33,128 nt of DNA, taken from contig CAKZJB010000025.1 of assembly GCA_936940865.1 (NCBI GenBank), positions 1-33,128 on the forward strand, read 5' to 3'. Under the pieces are notes generated by a model. That model made no database searches. It was not told the DNA's origin and saw only the letters and a program-made list of their open reading frames with translations. The translations under genes and the position numbers were made by a program. The stretch comes from an uncultured Asticcacaulis sp. Lineage in GTDB: Bacteria > Pseudomonadota > Alphaproteobacteria > Caulobacterales > Caulobacteraceae. Every line of letters begins with the position of its first letter. The first letter of the stretch is position 1. This document shows positions 17,300-25,724 of the stretch, one piece after another.

Positions 17300-20200
17300 T
17301 CACGGTTTCAGGCCGTAGCCGGCGTACTGCGCGTCGATCCAGCTGGCCGCCTTGCGCGCCGCCGCCAGGTCGGCCTGGCCGCCCGCCTTGTCGCCCTTGC
17401 GCAGCTTGACCAGGCCCCGGCCGTACAACGAGCTTGCGAGGTCGGGAACCTGCGCCAGGGCCGCGTCGTAGTCCGCCAGCGCCTCGTCGAGCTTGCCCAT
17501 GCGGAACTTCACCAGGGCGCGGCTGTCGAGATAGCCCGCCGCTTTCGGCGACATCTTCAGCGCGGTTTCGCAGTCGGCAAGCGCCACGTCGAGCTGGACG
17601 TTGCGCGTCGCCCGCTCCCAGCAGGTGTTGTTGAAGTCCACGGCCTTGTCCGGATTGGCCTGTTTCATGGCGTCGTAGTCCGCCAGCCCCTTGTCCACCT
17701 GGCCCCGGGCGAAATAGAGCCGCGCGCGGAAGATGTGCGTGTCCTCGCTCCTGGGCGCCAGGGCCACCGCGGCGTCGGCGTCTTCCATGGCCTTGGCATA
17801 GTCCTTGTCGCTCATCCGGAAGCCCGCACGCACCAGCAACGGAAAATAGGCCTTGGGGTCCAGTTTGATCGCCGCGTCGATATCGCCGAGCGCCGCTGCG
17901 CGGTCGCTCGGCGGACGGTCCTCAGCCCGCCTGGCGTAGGCATAGACGTACGGCTTGAGCGCGATGACCTTATCCCACTCCGCCACGGCCTGCGCCTTCG
18001 ACGCCGCGCACTTTTCAGCGTCGAGCTTCCAGCAGCTTTCGTAAATTCCGGCCAGACGCGCGTGAAGGTCGGCATCGTCGGGATTGGCGGCGATCGCCTT
18101 GCGCAACAGGTCCGTGGCCTCGTCGACCTTGTTCTCGTACAGGGCAAGCGATATCAGCGCATTGGTGGTTTCGGAGGAATCCGGATCGAGATCCTTCGCC
18201 GCCTCGATATCCTGGCGCCCCAGATCGATCTTGCCCATCATCAGATAGGTCATTCCGCGGTTGATCAGGGCGTAGGTATCGTTGGGGTATATGGCCAGGG
18301 CCTTGCCGAAGGCCTCGATGGCGTCATCGGAGCGGTTCTGCGCACGCCGGACCATGGCCAGGCCGTTAAACGCGATCCACTGGCCAGGGTCGGTCTTGAC
18401 CGCCAGCTCGTAATCGGCGGCCGCAGCGGCCGTATTGTTGCGCGTCAGGAATATCCAGCCGCGCCCCTCCAGCGCCGCGACGTTGGCCGGATCGAGCCGC
18501 AGCGCCTTGTTGAAGGCGGCCAGGGCTTCATCCGGCTTGTTGTCGCGCGACGCCTGCTGGCCGTCGGCGGCATAGTCCGCCGCCGTCTTGGGGGCGTCGG
18601 CCGCGGCGGTGTCGCCCTTGGCCTTGTCGGGATCGGCCTTGTGATAGCTTTTCGGCGCCACCACCACGACGTCCTTCTTCCACAGCCTGGTCAGTTCGGG
18701 CGATGCCGCCACGGCGTCCTTGTAGCTGATCTCGGGCACCAGCGAGCGACGGTACGAATCGAGCGTCACCCGGTTGTCCTTGAGAACGGCCTCGCGATGG
18801 AAGAGCGACCCGCCCAGCGTCGTGTCGACATTGCCGCCTTCGAGCGTGAAGCCCTTGGCGTCCCTGGGCAGCACGATTTCCTCGCGCGTGCGGACGTAGT
18901 AGGGGAAGTTGATCATGACCGGGGCGTCCCGGTGCGGGCCGCTGTCGCGCTTTTCGCCTTCGCTCCACCCCATGCCGACAAGATCGGTGGTGTAGCGCCA
19001 GGTCTTGCCGTCGTCACTGGCATCCCAGCCCATATTGGCCGTGCCGTCCATGACCATCCGTTCCTCGCCGGTGGCCGGATCGAAGGTGGCGGACACCTTG
19101 CGCGGCGTCATCCAGCTGAATTCCTGGGCCCAGTATCCCTTGAGCACCTTTTCCTGGTCGGCCTGGGTCTGGGCGCGCAGGGCCTGGTCGAGCTGCACCG
19201 CGACGTCGCCGCGCACGATCTTTTCGATGTGTACGCCGGCCGGCACGTCGAGGCCGGCGGAAGCATCCAGCCGGATGGTGGTATCCTCGCCCGGCTTGTC
19301 CAGCGGCGTCATCGCAATGGCTTCAAGCGCCGCGCCGCCGGTCCGGACCGGCAGGCCCCAGCGCAAGGCCGGCGGGCGGACGCTGTCGAGGTCGCGGTCG
19401 CCCATGCGCGTGCCGTCCAGCCAGTAGACCTTGCCGGCGATTTCGGCGCGGACGATGACGTGGTCGAACTGCTCCATCGCGGGCAGGCGCTGGTCCAGCC
19501 CGTCGCCGCCGCTGCTGTTGACCAGGGCGGCCTCCGCCTTGATGCCGAGCGCGTTGAGCAGGGCGACCAGCAGGACCGACTTGCCCTTGCAGTCGCCGAA
19601 CCGGCGCTGCCAGGTGGTGTCGGCGTCGGCGGGCGTATAGCCGCCGAGATTCATGCCGAGGAAGACATACCGCACCTGGTTCTCGACCAGGTGCAGGGCC
19701 ATGGCGGCCTGCGCCTTCTTGTCGGACGTGGTCTTCCTGATGGTCTCGATCTCGGCGTTGAGCGGCGAATCCGGCGCGATCGCCGCCGCCTTGGCGTAGA
19801 GCGGCGCCAGGACCGAAGATATCTCCTGCCAGGAGGCGAACTGCGAGAATTCCACCAGGCCGAACTGGTTGAAGCGCGCCGGCGCGTCGTCCTGGGTCTC
19901 GGCCTTGACGACGTGGCTGCGCTGCATCTCGTAGCTTTCGCCGGTCGCCGTCTTCGTCACCTTGCCGGTAAGGTCCTCGCTCTGGCGCCAGTGCACCGGC
20001 CTGGCTGCGTCCCAGACGGCGCGCACCGACTGTTGGCCGGTGGGCCCCGTCGACAGGCTTTGCACGACAAGCTCGCCGCGGCCGGCCCATACCGGGTCCC
20101 TGCGCTGCACCGACAGCGAGAAGACCAGGGTGTCACCGGGCTGCAGCCCCTCGGGCTGGAGCACGCCGGTGAGATAGCCGTCGAGCATGGCGAGGTCGAG

Positions 20201-20617
20201 ATTCTGCTCGCGGCGAAGGACGGTGAAGCTCTGGCCGTTGGCCAGCACGTCGATGACCTTGTCGCCGCGCAGTATCTGCACCTTGTGCACGGTCGCGACG
20301 TCGGTCTCCGGGTTCCAGGTGATATAGGACTGCGCCCCCTGCAGGCCCGCCGGGGTCTGGATATGATAGGCGATCTCGGAATGGTAGGTCGTGGTGCCGT
20401 CGGCCGCGAAATTGACCTGGAGGTCCTGCAACAGCAGTTGGGCGGGCGCCCCGGCATAGGCGTCGTCGGGCTTGGGGATGCTGACGGGCTTTACCCAGGC
20501 CTCCGCCGGCGCGTAGACGATCTTGTCCGCCGCCATCGCCGGAAAGGCCGCCATTGCCAGAACGACCATCAGCCCGGTGCCCGCGGCCACCCGGCGCTTG
20601 TTAAACGCTCTTGTCAT
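17300..20617 (-). CDS. DUF3857 / transglutaminase-like / TPR exported protein
   Basis: A 1105-aa protein. ATG 20617 is preferred: GGGGG lies just upstream, and a clean signal peptide follows (MTRAFNKRRVAAGTG... FPAMA). The N-terminal DUF3857 beta domain covers about residues 50-250. The transglutaminase-like core has RFGDCKGKSVLL with Cys343, FDHVIV with His386 and YWLDGT with Asp401, so a complete Cys-His-Asp triad is present. The C-terminal third (from about 670) is tetratricopeptide repeats (ALAAFNKALRLDPANVAALE, AIEAFGKALAIYPNDTYALI and others). Such proteins are widespread in periplasms of Proteobacteria and Bacteroidetes; their reaction is not established. It probably acts in the periplasm as a thiol hydrolase or peptide-modifying enzyme on a TPR scaffold. 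Confidence 0.88.
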   Translation of the reverse strand: MTRAFNKRRVAAGTGLMVVLAMAAFPAMAADKIVYAPAEAWVKPVSIPKPDDAYAGAPAQLLLQDLQVNFAADGTTTYHSEIAYHIQTPAGLQGAQSYITWNPETDVATVHKVQILRGDKVIDVLANGQSFTVLRREQNLDLAMLDGYLTGVLQPEGLQPGDTLVFSLSVQRRDPVWAGRGELVVQSLSTGPTGQQSVRAVWDAARPVHWRQSEDLTGKVTKTATGESYEMQRSHVVKAETQDDAPARFNQFGLVEFSQFASWQEISSVLAPLYAKAAAIAPDSPLNAEIETIRKTTSDKKAQAAMALHLVENQVRYVFLGMNLGGYTPADADTTWQRRFGDCKGKSVLLVALLNALGIKAEAALVNSSGGDGLDQRLPAMEQFDHVIVRAEIAGKVYWLDGTRMGDRDLDSVRPPALRWGLPVRTGGAALEAIAMTPLDKPGEDTTIRLDASAGLDVPAGVHIEKIVRGDVAVQLDQALRAQTQADQEKVLKGYWAQEFSWMTPRKVSATFDPATGEERMVMDGTANMGWDASDDGKTWRYTTDLVGMGWSEGEKRDSGPHRDAPVMINFPYYVRTREEIVLPRDAKGFTLEGGNVDTTLGGSLFHREAVLKDNRVTLDSYRRSLVPEISYKDAVAASPELTRLWKKDVVVVAPKSYHKADPDKAKGDTAAADAPKTAADYAADGQQASRDNKPDEALAAFNKALRLDPANVAALEGRGWIFLTRNNTAAAAADYELAVKTDPGQWIAFNGLAMVRRAQNRSDDAIEAFGKALAIYPNDTYALINRGMTYLMMGKIDLGRQDIEAAKDLDPDSSETTNALISLALYENKVDEATDLLRKAIAANPDDADLHARLAGIYESCWKLDAEKCAASKAQAVAEWDKVIALKPYVYAYARRAEDRPPSDRAAALGDIDAAIKLDPKAYFPLLVRAGFRMSDKDYAKAMEDADAAVALAPRSEDTHIFRARLYFARGQVDKGLADYDAMKQANPDKAVDFNNTCWERATRNVQLDVALADCETALKMSPKAAGYLDSRALVKFRMGKLDEALADYDAALAQVPDLASSLYGRGLVKLRKGDKAGGQADLAAARKAASWIDAQYAGYGLKP

Positions 20618-20714
20618 GAATACCCCCATACGCCGGACCACTTCCCGCGTCCGCGACCGGAAATCTACAGATCGCCGCGCATGACAGCAAGGGGTTGTAA
20701 AATAAAGATGAAGA

Positions 20715-21443
20715 CTATCCGTCCGCGGCGTGCGTCTCGATATAGCGCGCCAGGGTCAAAAGGTCGCCGACGGGCGCGTCGGACACGGCAAAGCAGGTCA
20801 GTTTGCCGCGCTGCCAGCCGACGACATGATAGTCCTGTGCGCGGATCACATGCGGCACCACCAGCGGCGACTGTTCGGTGCGGCCATTGCCCGAAATCGC
20901 GTAGAAATCGACCGTATGGCCGTTGCACATATAGGTCAGGGCCGAGGCCTTCCGCCGCGCCACGCGGTCGGTGCGCGCGCTGACGAGCCGGCAGCCGCCG
21001 GCAACCTCCAGCACAGGCGGCGCGAAGTCGAGACGGGCCTTCAACCACGGCTTTACGTTTCCGCCGGACGCCGCGACGGTATCCGGCGCCGCTCCCCGCA
21101 AGGCGCGCTGGTGCCCGGCGACGACATCATCGACCGGCGATACCGGCCGGAACAGCAGCATGGCCGCCATAAGCGACGCCGCCATAAGCCCCCCGCCGCT
21201 CCATATCGCCGTCCTTCGCGCCCGGTCCGCCGCCACCCGGCGGCGGATGCCGTCCGCAAGGCCTTGCGGCGCAACCCGCCCCCAGTCGACGCGCTTCACC
21301 GCCGCCTTCAGCTCGCGGATGCGGGCAAGGTCGGCCCGGCAGGCGGCGCAGGTTTCAAGATGCGCCTCGACGGCGCGGGCTTCGCCGCCATCGAGTTCGC
21401 CGTCGGCATAGGCGTGCAGCCGCAGGGCAAATTCGTCGCTCAT
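20715..21443 (-). CDS. zinc-finger anti-sigma factor
   Basis: A 242-aa membrane protein. The cytoplasmic N-terminus (LHAYADGELDGGEARAVEAH) leads to the ZAS motif His28-x3-Cys32-x2-Cys35 (HLETCAAC). One transmembrane helix follows (about residues 80-98, GGGLMAASLMAAMLLF). The periplasmic C-terminal domain contains three further cysteines (GGCRLV, YMCNGH, LTCFAV), which might sense redox or copper state; this is inference. Its start overlaps the sigma gene's stop by ATGA (21440-21443), giving coupled, balanced synthesis of sigma and anti-sigma. Confidence 0.9.
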   Translation of the reverse strand: MSDEFALRLHAYADGELDGGEARAVEAHLETCAACRADLARIRELKAAVKRVDWGRVAPQGLADGIRRRVAADRARRTAIWSGGGLMAASLMAAMLLFRPVSPVDDVVAGHQRALRGAAPDTVAASGGNVKPWLKARLDFAPPVLEVAGGCRLVSARTDRVARRKASALTYMCNGHTVDFYAISGNGRTEQSPLVVPHVIRAQDYHVVGWQRGKLTCFAVSDAPVGDLLTLARYIETHAADG

Positions 21444-21976
21444 GGCTGCACCTCCACCAGGCGGGCGCGCAGCATGTCGCGGCCGCGTGCCAGCCGCGAC
21501 ATCACCGTGCCGACGGGCACGCCCAGCACCTCGGCAATCGTCTTGTACGGCATGTCCTCGATATCCTTGAGCATGATGACTTCGCGGAAGACCGCCGGCA
21601 GGCCGAGCAGCGCCTCACGCAGGCGCCGGGCCATCTCGCCGGCGATCAGGGTCGTTTCGGGGCTGTCCTCGTCGCGCAAATGCACCGCATCCTCCGGCGT
21701 CCAGGCCGTTTCATCGTCGACATCGACCGTCACGAGAGTCCGTCGCAGCCCGTCATAGGCGCTGCGCCGCACGATGGTGAACAGCCAGGCCCGCGCATTG
21801 CCGGCGGTGTAGCGGCCCCAGGCGGCATGGGCTTTCAGTACGGCGTCCTGCACCACGTCCTCGGCCGTGGCCGGGTCGCGCACCAGCCACAGGGCAAGCC
21901 GGTAGGCGCCGTCGAGATGCGGCAGCACCTGACGTTCGAACTCGCTCTGTGAGGGCCGCAGCGTGAAAAGCTTCAT
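21440..21976 (-). CDS. ECF sigma factor
   Basis: A 178-aa sigma-70-family protein with only regions 2 and 4. Region 2: YRLALWLVRDPATAEDVVQD and ARAWLFTIVRRSAYD. Region 4: LLGLPAVFREVIMLKDIEDM and an HTH, YKTIAEVLGVPVGTVMSRLA. It directs RNA polymerase to its regulon when the adjacent anti-sigma factor releases it. ATG 21976 was chosen over a 42-codon upstream extension, which runs through the promoter; the ribosome site is weak (GGAT), fitting a nearly leaderless mRNA. It is divergent from the metallophosphoesterase/cupredoxin genes, its likely targets. Confidence 0.93.
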   Translation of the reverse strand: MKLFTLRPSQSEFERQVLPHLDGAYRLALWLVRDPATAEDVVQDAVLKAHAAWGRYTAGNARAWLFTIVRRSAYDGLRRTLVTVDVDDETAWTPEDAVHLRDEDSPETTLIAGEMARRLREALLGLPAVFREVIMLKDIEDMPYKTIAEVLGVPVGTVMSRLARGRDMLRARLVEVQP

Positions 21977-21995
21977 GTCATCCGTTGAGATGTGT

Positions 21996-22021
21996 AACGG
22001 GCCGCCGCTCTGTTTATTCCC
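21996..22021 (-). promoter_or_regulatory. candidate ECF promoter of the sigma/anti-sigma operon
   Basis: On the minus strand, GGGAATAA (complement of 22014-22021) is followed after 14 nt by CGTT (complement of 21996-21999), 20 bp before the sigma start. The GGAAT/CGTT pairing resembles ECF-type promoters (compare GGAAC-N16/17-CGTT). It matches the divergent promoter below and implies autoregulation. Confidence 0.6.
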
Positions 22022-22053
22022 CTTTGCCGCAAAAAAATATTGCGATGATTTTT

Positions 22054-22080
22054 GGGAATAAGCCGCACGTCCCGGCCGTT
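22054..22080 (+). promoter_or_regulatory. candidate ECF promoter of the metallophosphoesterase/cupredoxin operon
   Basis: GGGAATAA (22054-22061), a 15-nt spacer and CGTT (22077-22080), 33 bp before the ATG at 22114. These are the same two elements as in the opposing sigma-gene promoter, with a spacer differing by one base. Confidence 0.6.
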
Positions 22081-22113
22081 TCCGGTGCGATCCCCCGCAC
22101 AAAGGAGACGGAG

Positions 22114-23052
22114 ATGGACAATGACAACGACGCCGCGCCCTCGCGCCGGCACCTGCTGAAATGCTCGGCCTGGGCCGGCACCGGGGTGGCCTGGGCCATG
22201 CTGGGCGGCGTGCCGCGCGCCTTCGCGCTTGACGGGCCCGCCAGGGCGCCCGACGAACTGAAGCTCTTGTTCGTGCAGTTGAGCGACAGCCATATCGGCT
22301 TCAACAAGGCCGCCAACCCCGAACCGGTCAAGACATTGAATGAGGCCAAGGCGAAGATCCGCGCCTTGCCGAAGACGCCGCAACTGATCCTGCACACGGG
22401 CGACATCACGCACCTGTCGCGGCCGGACGAGTTCGACACGGCGGCGCAGATCCTGGGCGACCTGCCGGCGCCCGTGCGCTACGTGCCGGGCGAGCACGAT
22501 ATCCTCGACGAGGGGGCGGGCAAGGCCTATCTCGACCGCTACGGCAAGGGCACCAAGGGCAATGGCTGGTACAGTTTCGACATGGCCGGCGTGCACTTCA
22601 TCGCCCTGGTCAATGTCTTCGACTTCAAGCCCGGCCAGGAAGCCAGCCTTGGCGCCGACCAGCTCGCCTGGCTCAAGGACGATCTGCGCGCCGTGTCACA
22701 CTCGACGCCCGTCGTCGTCTATACGCATATTCCGCTGTGGGACATCTATGCGCCCTGGGGCTGGGGCACCAGCGATTCCGAAGTCACCGTCGCCATGCTG
22801 CGCCCCTACGGCTCGGTGACCGTGCTCAACGGCCATATCCACCAGATCCAGCAGAAGGTCGAAGGCAACATCACCTTCCACACGGCGCGCGGCACCGCCT
22901 ATCCGCAGCCCGCGCCGGGCGCCGCCGACAGCCCCGGTCCGCTGGTCGTGCCGCCAGAGCAGCTTCGCTCATACCTCGGCGTGTCGGACATCAGCGTCCG
23001 GCGCGGCCGACACCCGCTCGCCATCCACGACGCCACCCTTTCCGAAATGTGA
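22114..23052 (+). CDS. Tat-exported metallophosphoesterase (calcineurin-like)
   Basis: A 312-aa protein. Its Tat signal is nearly canonical (SRRHLLK, residues 10-16, followed by a hydrophobic stretch). The metal-site motifs are in order: SDSH (Asp58, His60), GDITH (Asp97), GEHD (126-129), THIP (His205) and NGHIH (His241, His243). The third motif is normally GNHD, in which the Asn bridges metal and phosphate; here it is Glu127. The fold hydrolyses phosphomonoesters or diesters; the substrate is unknown. AAGGAG is 6 nt before the ATG. It is 7 bp upstream of a cupredoxin gene, so one operon. A probable ECF promoter ties it to the divergent sigma factor. Confidence 0.9.
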   Translation: MDNDNDAAPSRRHLLKCSAWAGTGVAWAMLGGVPRAFALDGPARAPDELKLLFVQLSDSHIGFNKAANPEPVKTLNEAKAKIRALPKTPQLILHTGDITHLSRPDEFDTAAQILGDLPAPVRYVPGEHDILDEGAGKAYLDRYGKGTKGNGWYSFDMAGVHFIALVNVFDFKPGQEASLGADQLAWLKDDLRAVSHSTPVVVYTHIPLWDIYAPWGWGTSDSEVTVAMLRPYGSVTVLNGHIHQIQQKVEGNITFHTARGTAYPQPAPGAADSPGPLVVPPEQLRSYLGVSDISVRRGRHPLAIHDATLSEM

Positions 23053-23059
23053 GCCCATC

Positions 23060-23398
23060 ATGTTGAAATCGCTTATGTTCGCCGCGGGCCTGGCCGCGGC
23101 CGCCGCCCCTGTCGCCGCCGCCCCGGCCGGCCATACGGTCACTGTCGACATCAAAAACTTCATGTTCATGCCGATGACGGTGACCATCGCCGAGGGCGAA
23201 ACGGTGACCTGGACCAACCGCGACCAGATCCCGCACACGGTCGCCGAAAAGAACAAGCTGTTCCGCTCGGCGGCGCTCGATACGGGCGACACCTACAGCC
23301 ACACCTTCGACAAGGCCGGCACCTACGACTATTTCTGCACGCTGCATCCGCAGATGTTCGCACATGTCGTGGTGACCCCGGCGGCGAAGAAGAAATAG
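23060..23398 (+). CDS. cupredoxin (plastocyanin/amicyanin-like, type 1 copper)
   Basis: A 112-aa periplasmic protein with a signal peptide (about residues 1-21). The mature beta-sandwich carries all type-1 copper ligands: His59 (QIPHTV), Cys93, His96 and Met99 (YFCTLHPQM). The pattern (F-x-F-x-P-x-x-x-x-x-x-x-G-x-x-V-x-W-x-N) matches amicyanin/plastocyanin-type small blue copper proteins. It would carry single electrons or bind copper in the periplasm. Cotranscription with the metallophosphoesterase under an ECF sigma suggests a copper or oxidative-stress role (inference). It ends in a strong terminator. Confidence 0.92.
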   Translation: MLKSLMFAAGLAAAAAPVAAAPAGHTVTVDIKNFMFMPMTVTIAEGETVTWTNRDQIPHTVAEKNKLFRSAALDTGDTYSHTFDKAGTYDYFCTLHPQMFAHVVVTPAAKKK

Positions 23399-23427
23399 GT
23401 TATCCGCCGCGCCCGTCCGGCGAGACA

Positions 23428-23457
23428 AAAAGCCCGCCGGACGACCGGCGGGCTTTT
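23428..23457. terminator. bidirectional intrinsic terminator (cupredoxin / TonB receptor)
   Basis: Perfect 13-bp arms, AAAAGCCCGCCGG and CCGGCGGGCTTTT, surround an ACGA loop, with A and T runs outside, between the convergent stops at 23398 and 23469. Confidence 0.94.
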
Positions 23458-23468
23458 ACTTATCGGTC

Positions 23469-25724
23469 CTACATTCCACCGCCCGGGCCGCCCGGACGGG
23501 GGCCGTCGCCGCCGGGACCGCCCCAGCGGCCCTGACCGGGGCCTTGCGGCTGCGTCGCCGGCGCCTGGCCGCCCAGCGTATAGCTGAGACCGATGAAGAA
23601 GGCCTGCGCCTTGATGTGACGGATCTGCTCGCTGTGCAGGGTGGGGGTGTCGGTCACCACCTTCATCTGCGCCATGCGGAACGGATCGTTGACGTTCATG
23701 ACCAGCGCCAGCTTCGGGCTGAAGGTGTGCTTGTACGAGATATTGGCCATGGAGAACGGGGCGCGATAGCCCTGGCCGGTCAGCTGCTTGCCCGACGAGA
23801 AGGCGAAACCCTGGAAGGTATCGGCTGTCGTCGCCTTGTAGACCAGGCCGACGCGGCCCGACAGGGTCGTCGCCGACTGCGTGCCGCCAAGGCCCGGCGT
23901 ATTGATCTCGGTATAGGCCAGATTGCCGTTGGTCGTGACCATCAGCTTCTTCGACAGCGGCGTATTGAGGTTGAACTCGAGCCCGCCCGACTGGCTTTCG
24001 CCGTAGTTGCGCTTGGTCGTCAGCAGCACGTCCGGCGTCAAATAGTAGGAATAGCTGGTGATCGTGTGGGTATTCTTGGCGTAGTAGACGCGCGCCAGCC
24101 CGCTGATGAAGCCCTTGTTGTACTCATAGCCCAGCTGGAACTGGTCCGTTTCCTGCGGCTTGAGGTTCGGATTGCCGGCATTGACGTTCTGCGGGTCGAC
24201 ATAGGTCTGGAACGGGTTCAGGTCCTGCGGCGCCGGACGCTGCAAGCGGTGCGAATAGCTGAAGCGGATCTTCGACGTCTCGGACAGGGTGTAGGTCGCG
24301 AAGAAACTGGGCGACAGCTTGGTATAGTTGATATGGCCGGTCGTGCCCGCCGAAACCAGATCGGTCTTGAGGTCCAGCGTTTCGGAGCGCACGCCGCCCA
24401 GCACCGTCCACTTGTCGCCCAGCTGTTCCTGATAGGTGACATAGACCGCCGTGTTGGTCTGCTGGTAGGCAAAGTCGCTGGTCAGGTTTGCGGCATTGGC
24501 CCCCGTCGCGTTGCTGATCGATTCGCTGTCGTCATAGGTGATCTGGGTGCCCGCCGACAGCTGGCCATTGGCGCCGACATTGCGCGCGTAATCGACGCTG
24601 AGCACGGCATTCTTCTGGTCGGTCGACTGGTGCTGGGTCCCGTCCACCGTGACCATGGTCGGAACCGTCGTGTTGGCCGAATTGGAATCGCCGTCGGACC
24701 GGCTGATGCGCAGGTCGGTCTTCAGCGTCTCGCCCGGCTTGTCGCCCGTATGGTTCCAGTTGAAGTCCAGCATCGCGTCTTCGTGCGGGCCTTCGCCTGT
24801 GGCGTGCTGGGCATAGGCCTGGTTGACGCTGCCCGTCGTGACATAGTCGATATCGCCTTCCGACTTGCGGTTGCGGTTGGCGTAGTTGCCCTGGACGCTG
24901 TAGGTGTCGGCGTCGGAGGCAGCATATTCAACGCCGAAATTGCCCGAAACGGCGTTCATCTTCATGTCGCCCTTGCCCGACGTCGTCGTCGTGCGCGTCG
25001 CATTGCCGTTCGCGTCGAACGCCTGCTGGACCGAGGCAAGACTGGCGTCGAAGATGTCGTGGCGGACATTCAGACCGCCGCTCCACGTCGTCTTGCCCTT
25101 GCGGTACGAGCCGCTGAAGGCGCCGTTGTAGCGGCCGCCGCTGCCGATATTGGCGTTGATGACGCCCGATCCGCCGGGCTTGCGGTTCTTCTTCATCACC
25201 AGGTTGATGATGCCGCCCGAACCTTCGGAGCTGTACTGCGCGCCGGGGTTGGTCATGACCTCGACCGACTGGATGTCGCTGGACGACATGGCCTGCAGCG
25301 CGGCGGCGCGGTTGTCGCCCGACAGCATGACCGAGGGCTTGCCGTCGACATAGATCCTGACGTTGGAATTGCCGCGCAGGGTGACGTTGCCGTCATTGTC
25401 GACATTGACCGACGGCACCTTGTTGAGCGCGTCGGCGGCGGTGCCGCTGGTCGAGTCGATGTTCTTGGTGTTGTCGTAGGTCTCGCGGTCGATCTTCGTC
25501 GTCGATTTCTGCCCCTGGACGACGACGACGCCCGGCTGGGCCTTGTCGTCCGTCTTGTCCGTCTGGGACGCCCCGCCGGAGGCGGTCTGCGTGGCCTGGG
25601 TCTGCGCCGTCTGCGCATGAGCGCCCGCGCTCAGCAGGCCAAGGAGAAGTGCGGCGGGCAAAGCGGCGCCGAGAGCGAGGCGGCGGCGGTTCGAAGCCGC
25701 GCGCCCGGCCGAAGAGGCAGTCAT
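23469..25724 (-). CDS. TonB-dependent outer-membrane receptor
   Basis: A 751-aa protein. The signal peptide ends AHAQ (about residue 37). A Gln/Thr-rich stretch and a TonB-box-like PGVVVVQG precede the plug domain (ADALNKVPSVNVDNDGNVTLRG, YVDGKPSVML, IQSVEVMTNPGAQYSSEGSGGIINLVMK). The rest is a beta barrel of the outer-membrane beta-barrel_3-like kind, with aromatic-rich strands up to FFIGLSYTLGG. A Gly/Pro-rich tail of about 25 residues (GRWGGPGGDGPRPGGPGG) follows the last strand, so the chain does not end in the usual C-terminal aromatic residue. It imports a bulky ligand powered by TonB-ExbBD. Substrate unknown; hydrolase genes nearby make oligosaccharides plausible. AAGGGA precedes ATG 25724 by about 8 nt. 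Confidence 0.9.
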   Translation of the reverse strand: MTASSAGRAASNRRRLALGAALPAALLLGLLSAGAHAQTAQTQATQTASGGASQTDKTDDKAQPGVVVVQGQKSTTKIDRETYDNTKNIDSTSGTAADALNKVPSVNVDNDGNVTLRGNSNVRIYVDGKPSVMLSGDNRAAALQAMSSSDIQSVEVMTNPGAQYSSEGSGGIINLVMKKNRKPGGSGVINANIGSGGRYNGAFSGSYRKGKTTWSGGLNVRHDIFDASLASVQQAFDANGNATRTTTTSGKGDMKMNAVSGNFGVEYAASDADTYSVQGNYANRNRKSEGDIDYVTTGSVNQAYAQHATGEGPHEDAMLDFNWNHTGDKPGETLKTDLRISRSDGDSNSANTTVPTMVTVDGTQHQSTDQKNAVLSVDYARNVGANGQLSAGTQITYDDSESISNATGANAANLTSDFAYQQTNTAVYVTYQEQLGDKWTVLGGVRSETLDLKTDLVSAGTTGHINYTKLSPSFFATYTLSETSKIRFSYSHRLQRPAPQDLNPFQTYVDPQNVNAGNPNLKPQETDQFQLGYEYNKGFISGLARVYYAKNTHTITSYSYYLTPDVLLTTKRNYGESQSGGLEFNLNTPLSKKLMVTTNGNLAYTEINTPGLGGTQSATTLSGRVGLVYKATTADTFQGFAFSSGKQLTGQGYRAPFSMANISYKHTFSPKLALVMNVNDPFRMAQMKVVTDTPTLHSEQIRHIKAQAFFIGLSYTLGGQAPATQPQGPGQGRWGGPGGDGPRPGGPGGGM

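Follow-up and report, generated by a model that had tools for sequence, protein, structure and literature searches.

A putative ECF sigma-controlled unit joining a metallophosphoesterase-fold protein to a periplasmic electron carrier in an Asticcacaulis genome and its relatives

The closest described systems to the locus studied here are the extracytoplasmic function (ECF) sigma factors RpoE1 and RpoE4 of Sinorhizobium meliloti (group ECF26), which, in the portions of the published accounts used here, are activated by sulfite and control sorT-sorU-azu2, encoding a sulfite dehydrogenase, a cytochrome c and a pseudoazurin (PMC6180224, PMC3511301). We analyzed a 33,128-nt stretch of an uncultured Asticcacaulis sp. 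genome (contig CAKZJB010000025.1 of assembly GCA_936940865.1; hereafter the window), in which an ECF sigma/anti-sigma gene pair faces genes for a metallophosphoesterase-fold protein (MPE) and a cupredoxin. Within those same portions, the RpoE1/RpoE4 system resembles this four-gene unit in its single-pass anti-sigma factor with a periplasmic domain and in its output of a periplasmic enzyme plus a blue copper carrier; its targets also include a cytochrome b-like gene, and its enzyme is a sulfite dehydrogenase whereas that of the unit is an MPE-fold protein (PMC6180224, PMC3511301). No molybdenum sulfite dehydrogenase was found by Pfam among the unit's four genes, unlike the SorT-SorU-Azu2 operon. 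We propose that the window carries what is probably an autoregulated ECF unit, whose product would be an MPE-fold enzyme of the periplasm that is redox-coupled to its electron carrier; comparison supports the promoters, the co-inheritance of the four genes and the pairing of enzyme with carrier.

The features of the unit are listed below. The segment singled out by the original prediction, 21440-23457, covers the sigma, MPE and cupredoxin genes; the anti-sigma gene lies almost wholly outside it.

20715..21443, minus strand: anti-sigma factor, 242 aa, zf-HC2 (Pfam PF13490, E 2.7e-12; 14-sequence alignment)
21440..21976, minus strand: ECF sigma factor, 178 aa, overlapping the anti-sigma start by 4 nt (Pfam Sigma70_r2 and r4_2)
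21996..22021, minus strand: predicted sigma/anti-sigma promoter, GGGAATAA-N14-CGTT (direct reading; GGAATAA at the sigma heads of relatives)
22054..22080, plus strand: predicted MPE/cupredoxin promoter, GGGAATAA-N15-CGTT (direct reading; GGAATAA at the MPE heads of relatives)
22114..23052, plus strand: MPE, 312 aa (Pfam PF00149, E 1.3e-12; alignments; AlphaFold and Foldseek)
23060..23398, plus strand: type 1 cupredoxin, amicyanin-like, 112 aa, with signal peptide (Pfam PF00127, E 3.1e-12; alignment)
23429..23456, plus strand: probable intrinsic terminator, hairpin and T-run, AAAGCCCGCCGG-ACGA-CCGGCGGGCTTT (read directly)

The best NCBIfam match of the sigma factor, PRK12533, scores under its cut-off, and the Pfam matches of the cupredoxin gene are Copper-bind and Cupredoxin_1.

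The gap between the divergent genes holds two mirrored boxes. On the minus strand GGGAATAAACAGAGCGGCGGCCCGTT runs from 22021 to 21996 with a spacer of 14 and ends 19 nt upstream of the sigma ATG (21976), and on the plus strand GGGAATAAGCCGCACGTCCCGGCCGTT occupies 22054-22080 with a spacer of 15 and ends 33 nt upstream of the MPE ATG (22114). The pattern GGGAATAA-N{14,15}-CGTT has two matches in the window, compared with a mean of 0.00 and a largest count of 0 in 100 dinucleotide shuffles, so the paired motif that the original prediction described in both directions at promoter distance is real. The genome as a whole (5.07 Mb) has one match to GGGAATAA-N{12,18}-CGTT beyond the gap (contig C19; 0 in the reversed control). 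Loosening the -10 box to GGGAATAA-N{12,17}-GT yields 12 matches versus 10 in the control, and hence no genome-wide excess; in a crude six-frame scan, 7/9 of the looser-pattern sites outside the gap lie within an open reading frame (ORF) and 2/9 lie upstream of one (contigs C19 and C52). A wide regulon in this genome was rejected on these two counts. The C19 site (C19:19692; L001 1501-1528) reads GGGAATAA-N16-CGTT and stands 126 nt upstream of a GTG-initiated ORF of 166 codons. The C52 site (C52:15274; L161 1501-1522) reads GGGAATAA-N12-GT, its 12-nt spacer being short for such promoters, and stands 69 nt upstream of a 327-codon ORF with paired CxxC motifs at its start.

The four genes are largely inherited together. 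All four are present in 71/80 loci of our named-collection set (the best 80 of 583 confirmed relatives, rich in Pseudomonas and Bradyrhizobium), from Pseudomonadota, Acidobacteriota and Gemmatimonadota; among the rest, one locus lacks the anti-sigma gene only, four have MPE and cupredoxin, and four have MPE alone. The four-gene unit originally proposed, for which a search of other genomes had been suggested as a check, is thus found well beyond the window. A second, evenly drawn set comprises 21 distinct other loci from class and phylum samples, covered over about 3.9 kb each: within that span the sigma and the anti-sigma gene are each present in 20/21, and a cupredoxin profile match in 19/21 (weak, 20-30 bits, in L152, L154 and L208), or a carrier in 20/21 when the CuA-like protein of L153 is counted. 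Among 149 genomes of the same family, 14 carry a sigma orthologue (≥95 bits; the next ECF sigma factors reach only 68 bits) and 15 carry MPE, including all 14 sigma carriers; the MPE-only genome, G110, is fragmented and 85% complete. (L102 and L116 are repeats of family genomes G005 and G100.) In the order sample (n = 299) sigma passes 1e-22 in three genomes, and MPE passes 1e-40 in 12/337 genomes of the class sample and 13/299 of the phylum sample, the window's own genome being counted in each. Gene order varies, with divergent, MPE-first and sigma-first arrangements, and G009 has its MPE-cupredoxin pair on a separate contig, still with the promoter motif upstream.

Promoter motifs in relatives follow operon structure. 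Counting a box when it lies ≤250 nt upstream of a gene, and calling the first genes of operons heads, we found GGAATAA in the 80 loci at 68/77 MPE heads and 24/26 sigma heads and before 0/46 internal sigma genes. The evenly drawn loci, which were not used in setting the pattern and so served as a check, gave 15/20, 13/14 and 0/6, respectively. Where MPE lies downstream of the sigma and anti-sigma genes on one strand, it keeps a motif of its own in 4/4 cases of the family set and 1/2 of the contig set. The clade of the window comprises 18 loci (L064-L080 and L090; 16 Pseudomonas and two alphaproteobacterial metagenome-assembled genomes, MAGs), with the motif on the MPE side in 18/18 and on the sigma side in 17/18, L067 having a one-base variant. 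Both mirrored promoters are retained in 17/18 of these relatives, so the mirror-image layout is inherited; absence of the motif from orthologous divergent gaps, which the original prediction named as grounds for abandoning it, is not what we see. That one sigma factor drives both operons is strongly supported by this comparison, in which GGAATAA marks MPE and sigma heads and is missing before internal sigma genes. Two opposed sites 32 nt apart could also resemble an operator, and the boxes might then be a chance palindrome or a regulator's site rather than promoters. We regard this as extremely unlikely, since in other layouts the box stands alone and marks the starts of operons, genes inside operons almost never being preceded by one, and since the box fits the ECF26 promoter consensus as given in the part of the source used here (PMC6180224).

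That consensus, in the same part of the source, is GGAATA/GT, and the RpoE1 promoter, GGGAATAAATCC...GTGTCTT, is near-identical to the promoters of the unit (PMC6180224). The unit's promoters have the ECF26-type -35 GGAATA and -10 GT, with a -10 box that varies in some lineages, and its anti-sigma factor has the ECF26 layout of a cytoplasmic domain, one span and a periplasmic domain (Pfam and alignment by eye). In the sigma tree the sole ECF26 member, RpoE6 of pSymA, which we identified through published promoter strings, falls outside the module clade (100/99), on a long branch beside other ECF sigma factors (83/49). The motif precedes both the sigma factor's own operon and the target and is conserved in orthologues, as in autoregulated ECF units. 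We therefore describe the unit as apparently of the autoregulated ECF/anti-sigma kind and ECF26-like by promoter and anti-sigma layout, an affiliation the tree does not prove. Two further ECF/anti-sigma pairs, BcrS/AbcS of Brucella melitensis and EcfF/OsrA of Bradyrhizobium japonicum, resemble it in kind and preside over oxidant-defence genes; EcfF belongs to ECF group 16 and has GTAAC-type promoters, unlike the unit, and the portions of the two accounts used here do not mention MPE (PMC8315932, PMC3420878).

The partner of MPE is nearly always an electron carrier, whether type 1 copper, CuA-like or cytochrome c, as supported by gene content across the loci. The window's cupredoxin has the ligands H59, C93, H96 and M99, and this type 1 set (His, Cys, His, Met) is conserved in the alignment. 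Its nearest solved relatives are amicyanins (E 3e-16), and it shares copper ligands and size with the amicyanin/pseudoazurin type 1 cupredoxins. The partner of amicyanin is a dehydrogenase; the unit's cupredoxin instead adjoins an MPE-fold protein. In L152-L154 the carrier slot holds CuA-like proteins (Pfam COX2 and Cupredoxin_1) with a C-x3-C-x3-H-x2-M motif, which we take to be that of CuA; in G019 it holds a cytochrome c, judged from a CSGCH motif (no Pfam match), and in the Bacteroidota locus L103 a CytoC_RC-like protein. MPE and cupredoxin are fused in one ORF in 6/80 loci, five from Gemmatimonadota and one from an Acidobacteriota MAG; in L129 (Gemmatimonadota) the two domains of such a natural fusion are resolved by Pfam. 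Cupredoxin is also paired with MPE on the two actinobacterial plasmids examined, in one case next to genes for a molybdopterin oxidoreductase, a sigma factor and a Rieske protein, and on the Burkholderia plasmid examined no annotated carrier adjoins its MPE. Mycobacteroides abscessus plasmid 1 (L196 1-4903), typed as mobilizable, has molybdopterin oxidoreductase, epimerase, sigma, Rieske, cupredoxin and MPE genes in a row.

MPE has the fold of a hydrolase and an altered metal site. It matches PF00149 at 49 bits (gathering score 21.5) and carries the motifs DSH, HTGD, PGEHD, H205 and GHIH. The MPE fold usually has GNH[D/E], and in its place PGEHD is found in all 61 aligned rows and in 80/80 loci, with GEHD in 21/21 evenly drawn loci. 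Residues invariant in the 61 rows include D58, H60, D97, P125-G126-E127-H128-D129, H205, H241 and H243, and the HMMER alignment sets E127 opposite the Asn of the GpdQ PGNHD motif. This Asn is a metal ligand, with N97 of Rv0805 as its equivalent. AlphaFold models of MPE were of moderate quality (mean pLDDT 68.0, then 76.9), and with both of them Foldseek ranked GpdQ (3d03) and Rv0805 (2hy1) at the top (E 1.8e-12 and 5.5e-9 with the second model); by query length, GpdQ had TM-scores of 0.56 (first model) and 0.50 (second), and Rv0805 had 0.52 (first model, best chain) and 0.46 (second). These two metallophosphodiesterases share the D-x-H, GD and GHxH motifs with MPE; GpdQ carries GNHD where the MPE family carries GEHD, and we know of no pairing of GpdQ or Rv0805 with electron carriers. 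We set aside the idea of a SoxB-like thiosulfohydrolase, for which Foldseek E was only 2e-3 to 7e-3. At the N terminus we recognized by eye a twin-arginine signal, RRHLLKC. Its C17, directly after the twin arginines (RRxxLxC; window 22129-22164), recurs by pattern in 90/95 sequences; four of the five exceptions are misstarted or cut rows, and L103 is a real variant. This cysteine is unusually placed for a lipobox and odd in a cleaved signal peptide.

Under identical regulation, MPE could be an ordinary hydrolase, of phosphodiester or thiosulfate type, with the cupredoxin a separate stress protein, for instance one that soaks up copper or serves some other enzyme as donor. The Pfam Metallophos assignment, the phosphodiesterases that are its best structural neighbours and the retention of the remaining metal-site residues all favour this, and we treat it as a serious although rather doubtful possibility: every locus examined has Glu in place of Asn (80/80), cupredoxin is fused to MPE in six of them, and a copper sink leaves unexplained the CuA-type or cytochrome c carriers that replace cupredoxin elsewhere. 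The "phosphate-ester stress" originally hinted at is likewise doubtful, given the altered metal-site motif in 80/80 loci and the electron carrier as usual partner. Alternatively, the cupredoxin might hand copper or another metal to MPE, forming a metallation pair with no electron transfer. Adjacency and fusion would suit such a pair, and a Glu at this position could adjust which metal is bound, but the full amicyanin-like type 1 ligand set and the exchange for cytochrome c, a carrier without copper, make this improbable. A redox enzyme built on the MPE fold is an idea we hold tentatively for the PGEHD family as a whole: its Glu-ligand dimetal site may act in the periplasm to oxidize or reduce a small oxoanion or an oxidant, with a carrier of its own (a type 1 copper protein, a CuA-like one or a cytochrome c) giving or taking the electrons, and in at least three phyla a cognate ECF sigma factor would switch on its synthesis when needed.

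The anti-sigma factor combines a cytoplasmic zf-HC2 zinc finger, one membrane segment at about residues 78-98 (by eye) and a conserved periplasmic domain, whose core retains VKPW, GGR and GY...W...AVSD. The original prediction had counted three periplasmic cysteines among its hints of copper, redox or phosphate-ester stress. The cysteines do exist in the window's protein, after the membrane segment (C151, C173 and C217), but they are conserved in just 1, 1 and 2 of 87 homologues, respectively. A cysteine switch in the anti-sigma factor that detects an oxidant is consequently very improbable, and we rejected these nearly private residues as the sensor. As far as comparison shows, the regulatory part of the original prediction appears right and its sensor hint wrong.

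Other genes may join the unit in some relatives. In the 14 unit-carrying family genomes, GGGAATAAA-N{12,16}-GTC has 28 matches versus three in the reversed control, 15 of which are, by our count, unit operon heads. The 13 others include sites upstream of a cytochrome c gene in G125 (L187; Pfam), of a cytochrome b561 gene adjoining the unit in G005 (L176; Pfam) and of a b561-like ORF in G070 (L170; by eye), and one site in G009 points away from sigma; remaining non-head matches lie within ORFs or by genes with no recognizable link to the unit. Cytochrome b561-like ORFs occur within the fetched stretch in 7/94 sequences, two of which are the same genome. The cytochrome c gene of G125 and the b561-like genes of G070 and G005 may thus encode further components of the electron chain. 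The description of the regulon as "closed" fits the window's genome; in some relatives, however, a cytochrome c or b561 gene has the motif upstream as well. Separately, G070 has a motif-like site (G070:C213:4080; L182 1501-1526) 134 nt upstream of a gene for a 333-aa protein near the unit.

The whole unit was likely gained by transfer. In both MPE and sigma trees the window copy groups with Pseudomonas and two alphaproteobacterial MAGs in 19-row clades (100/99 and 100/89), apart from other copies in the family, although the window rows sit on long branches (0.57 and 1.29) that call for caution. Neither sigma nor MPE was found in 22 other genomes drawn from the same genus (0/22). Placement away from family copies and absence from these genomes make horizontal gain more likely, and the grouping with Pseudomonas together with the 0/22 count speaks against a local origin, which we rejected. 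The GC content of the unit does not deviate.

Several observations weigh against our interpretation. Among solved structures, the closest in fold are the phosphodiesterases GpdQ and Rv0805, and to our knowledge there is no MPE-fold oxidoreductase. Two zinc-finger cysteines are kept in 70/87 anti-sigma factors rather than all. L136 lacks any partner in its 13 kb, L155 lacks a carrier in the approximately 3.9 kb covered, and L202 lacks sigma and anti-sigma genes in its 3.9 kb. Counts over the 80 loci are not independent, because these were sampled as best matches and are rich in Pseudomonas and Bradyrhizobium. The -10 box is variable (GTC, GTT, GATC or GTA), and our first pattern, GGAATA-N14-18-GT, fits only 51/77 MPE and 23/26 sigma heads of the 80 loci (1/46 internal sigma genes). 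The -10 box was widened to G[TA][TC] after inspection of the misses, which raised the counts to 70/77 and 24/26 (1/46 internal; two heads at contig edges set aside) against a background of 4/402 ORFs and 1.3% of mononucleotide shuffles. For the evenly drawn loci the widened box fits 12/20 MPE and 7/14 sigma heads and GT fits 14/20 and 13/14, because several -10 boxes there are GTA. In the family set the widened box fits 9/10 MPE and 7/11 sigma heads; of the four sigma misses, one has the motif at -265, one lies behind a cytochrome gene, one has a GTA -10 box and one lies near a contig edge.

Two large genes flank the unit on the minus strand. Right after its terminator, 23469-25724 encodes a TonB-dependent receptor whose barrel is of the OMP_b-brl_3 type and whose tail is rich in Gly and Pro. 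The other gene, 17300-20641, encodes a protein of 1113 aa in which DUF3857 and a long TPR array occur along with a weak match to the transglutaminase core.

Together, our results suggest how an autoregulated, redox-coupled unit of this kind could work. The single-pass zinc-finger anti-sigma factor would hold sigma at the membrane until a signal in the envelope is detected by its conserved periplasmic domain, whereupon freed sigma would transcribe both the operon that encodes it and that of MPE and cupredoxin from the back-to-back GGGAATAA/CGTT promoters. The output would be an MPE-fold enzyme exported by the twin-arginine route, with Glu replacing the usual metal-binding Asn, whose reaction passes electrons to or from the small one-electron carrier that works with it in the periplasm, in this case a type 1 copper protein. 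By analogy with RpoE1/RpoE4, the signal may be a reactive small molecule, for example sulfite or an oxidant.

The literature searched, beyond whose reach most subscription papers lay, yielded no paper tied to the unit and no earlier description of its output module, and the unit, which also occurs in the fluorescens group of Pseudomonas, appears widespread and little studied. Plasmid annotations that we examined label such genes "metallophosphoesterase", steering experimenters to phosphate chemistry, yet the metal-site change, which is constant, and the carrier, which is nearly so but swappable and sometimes fused, point away from it. The unit is small and, judging from its promoters, self-regulated. 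If our interpretation is true, a classic hydrolase fold would have been turned to redox work.

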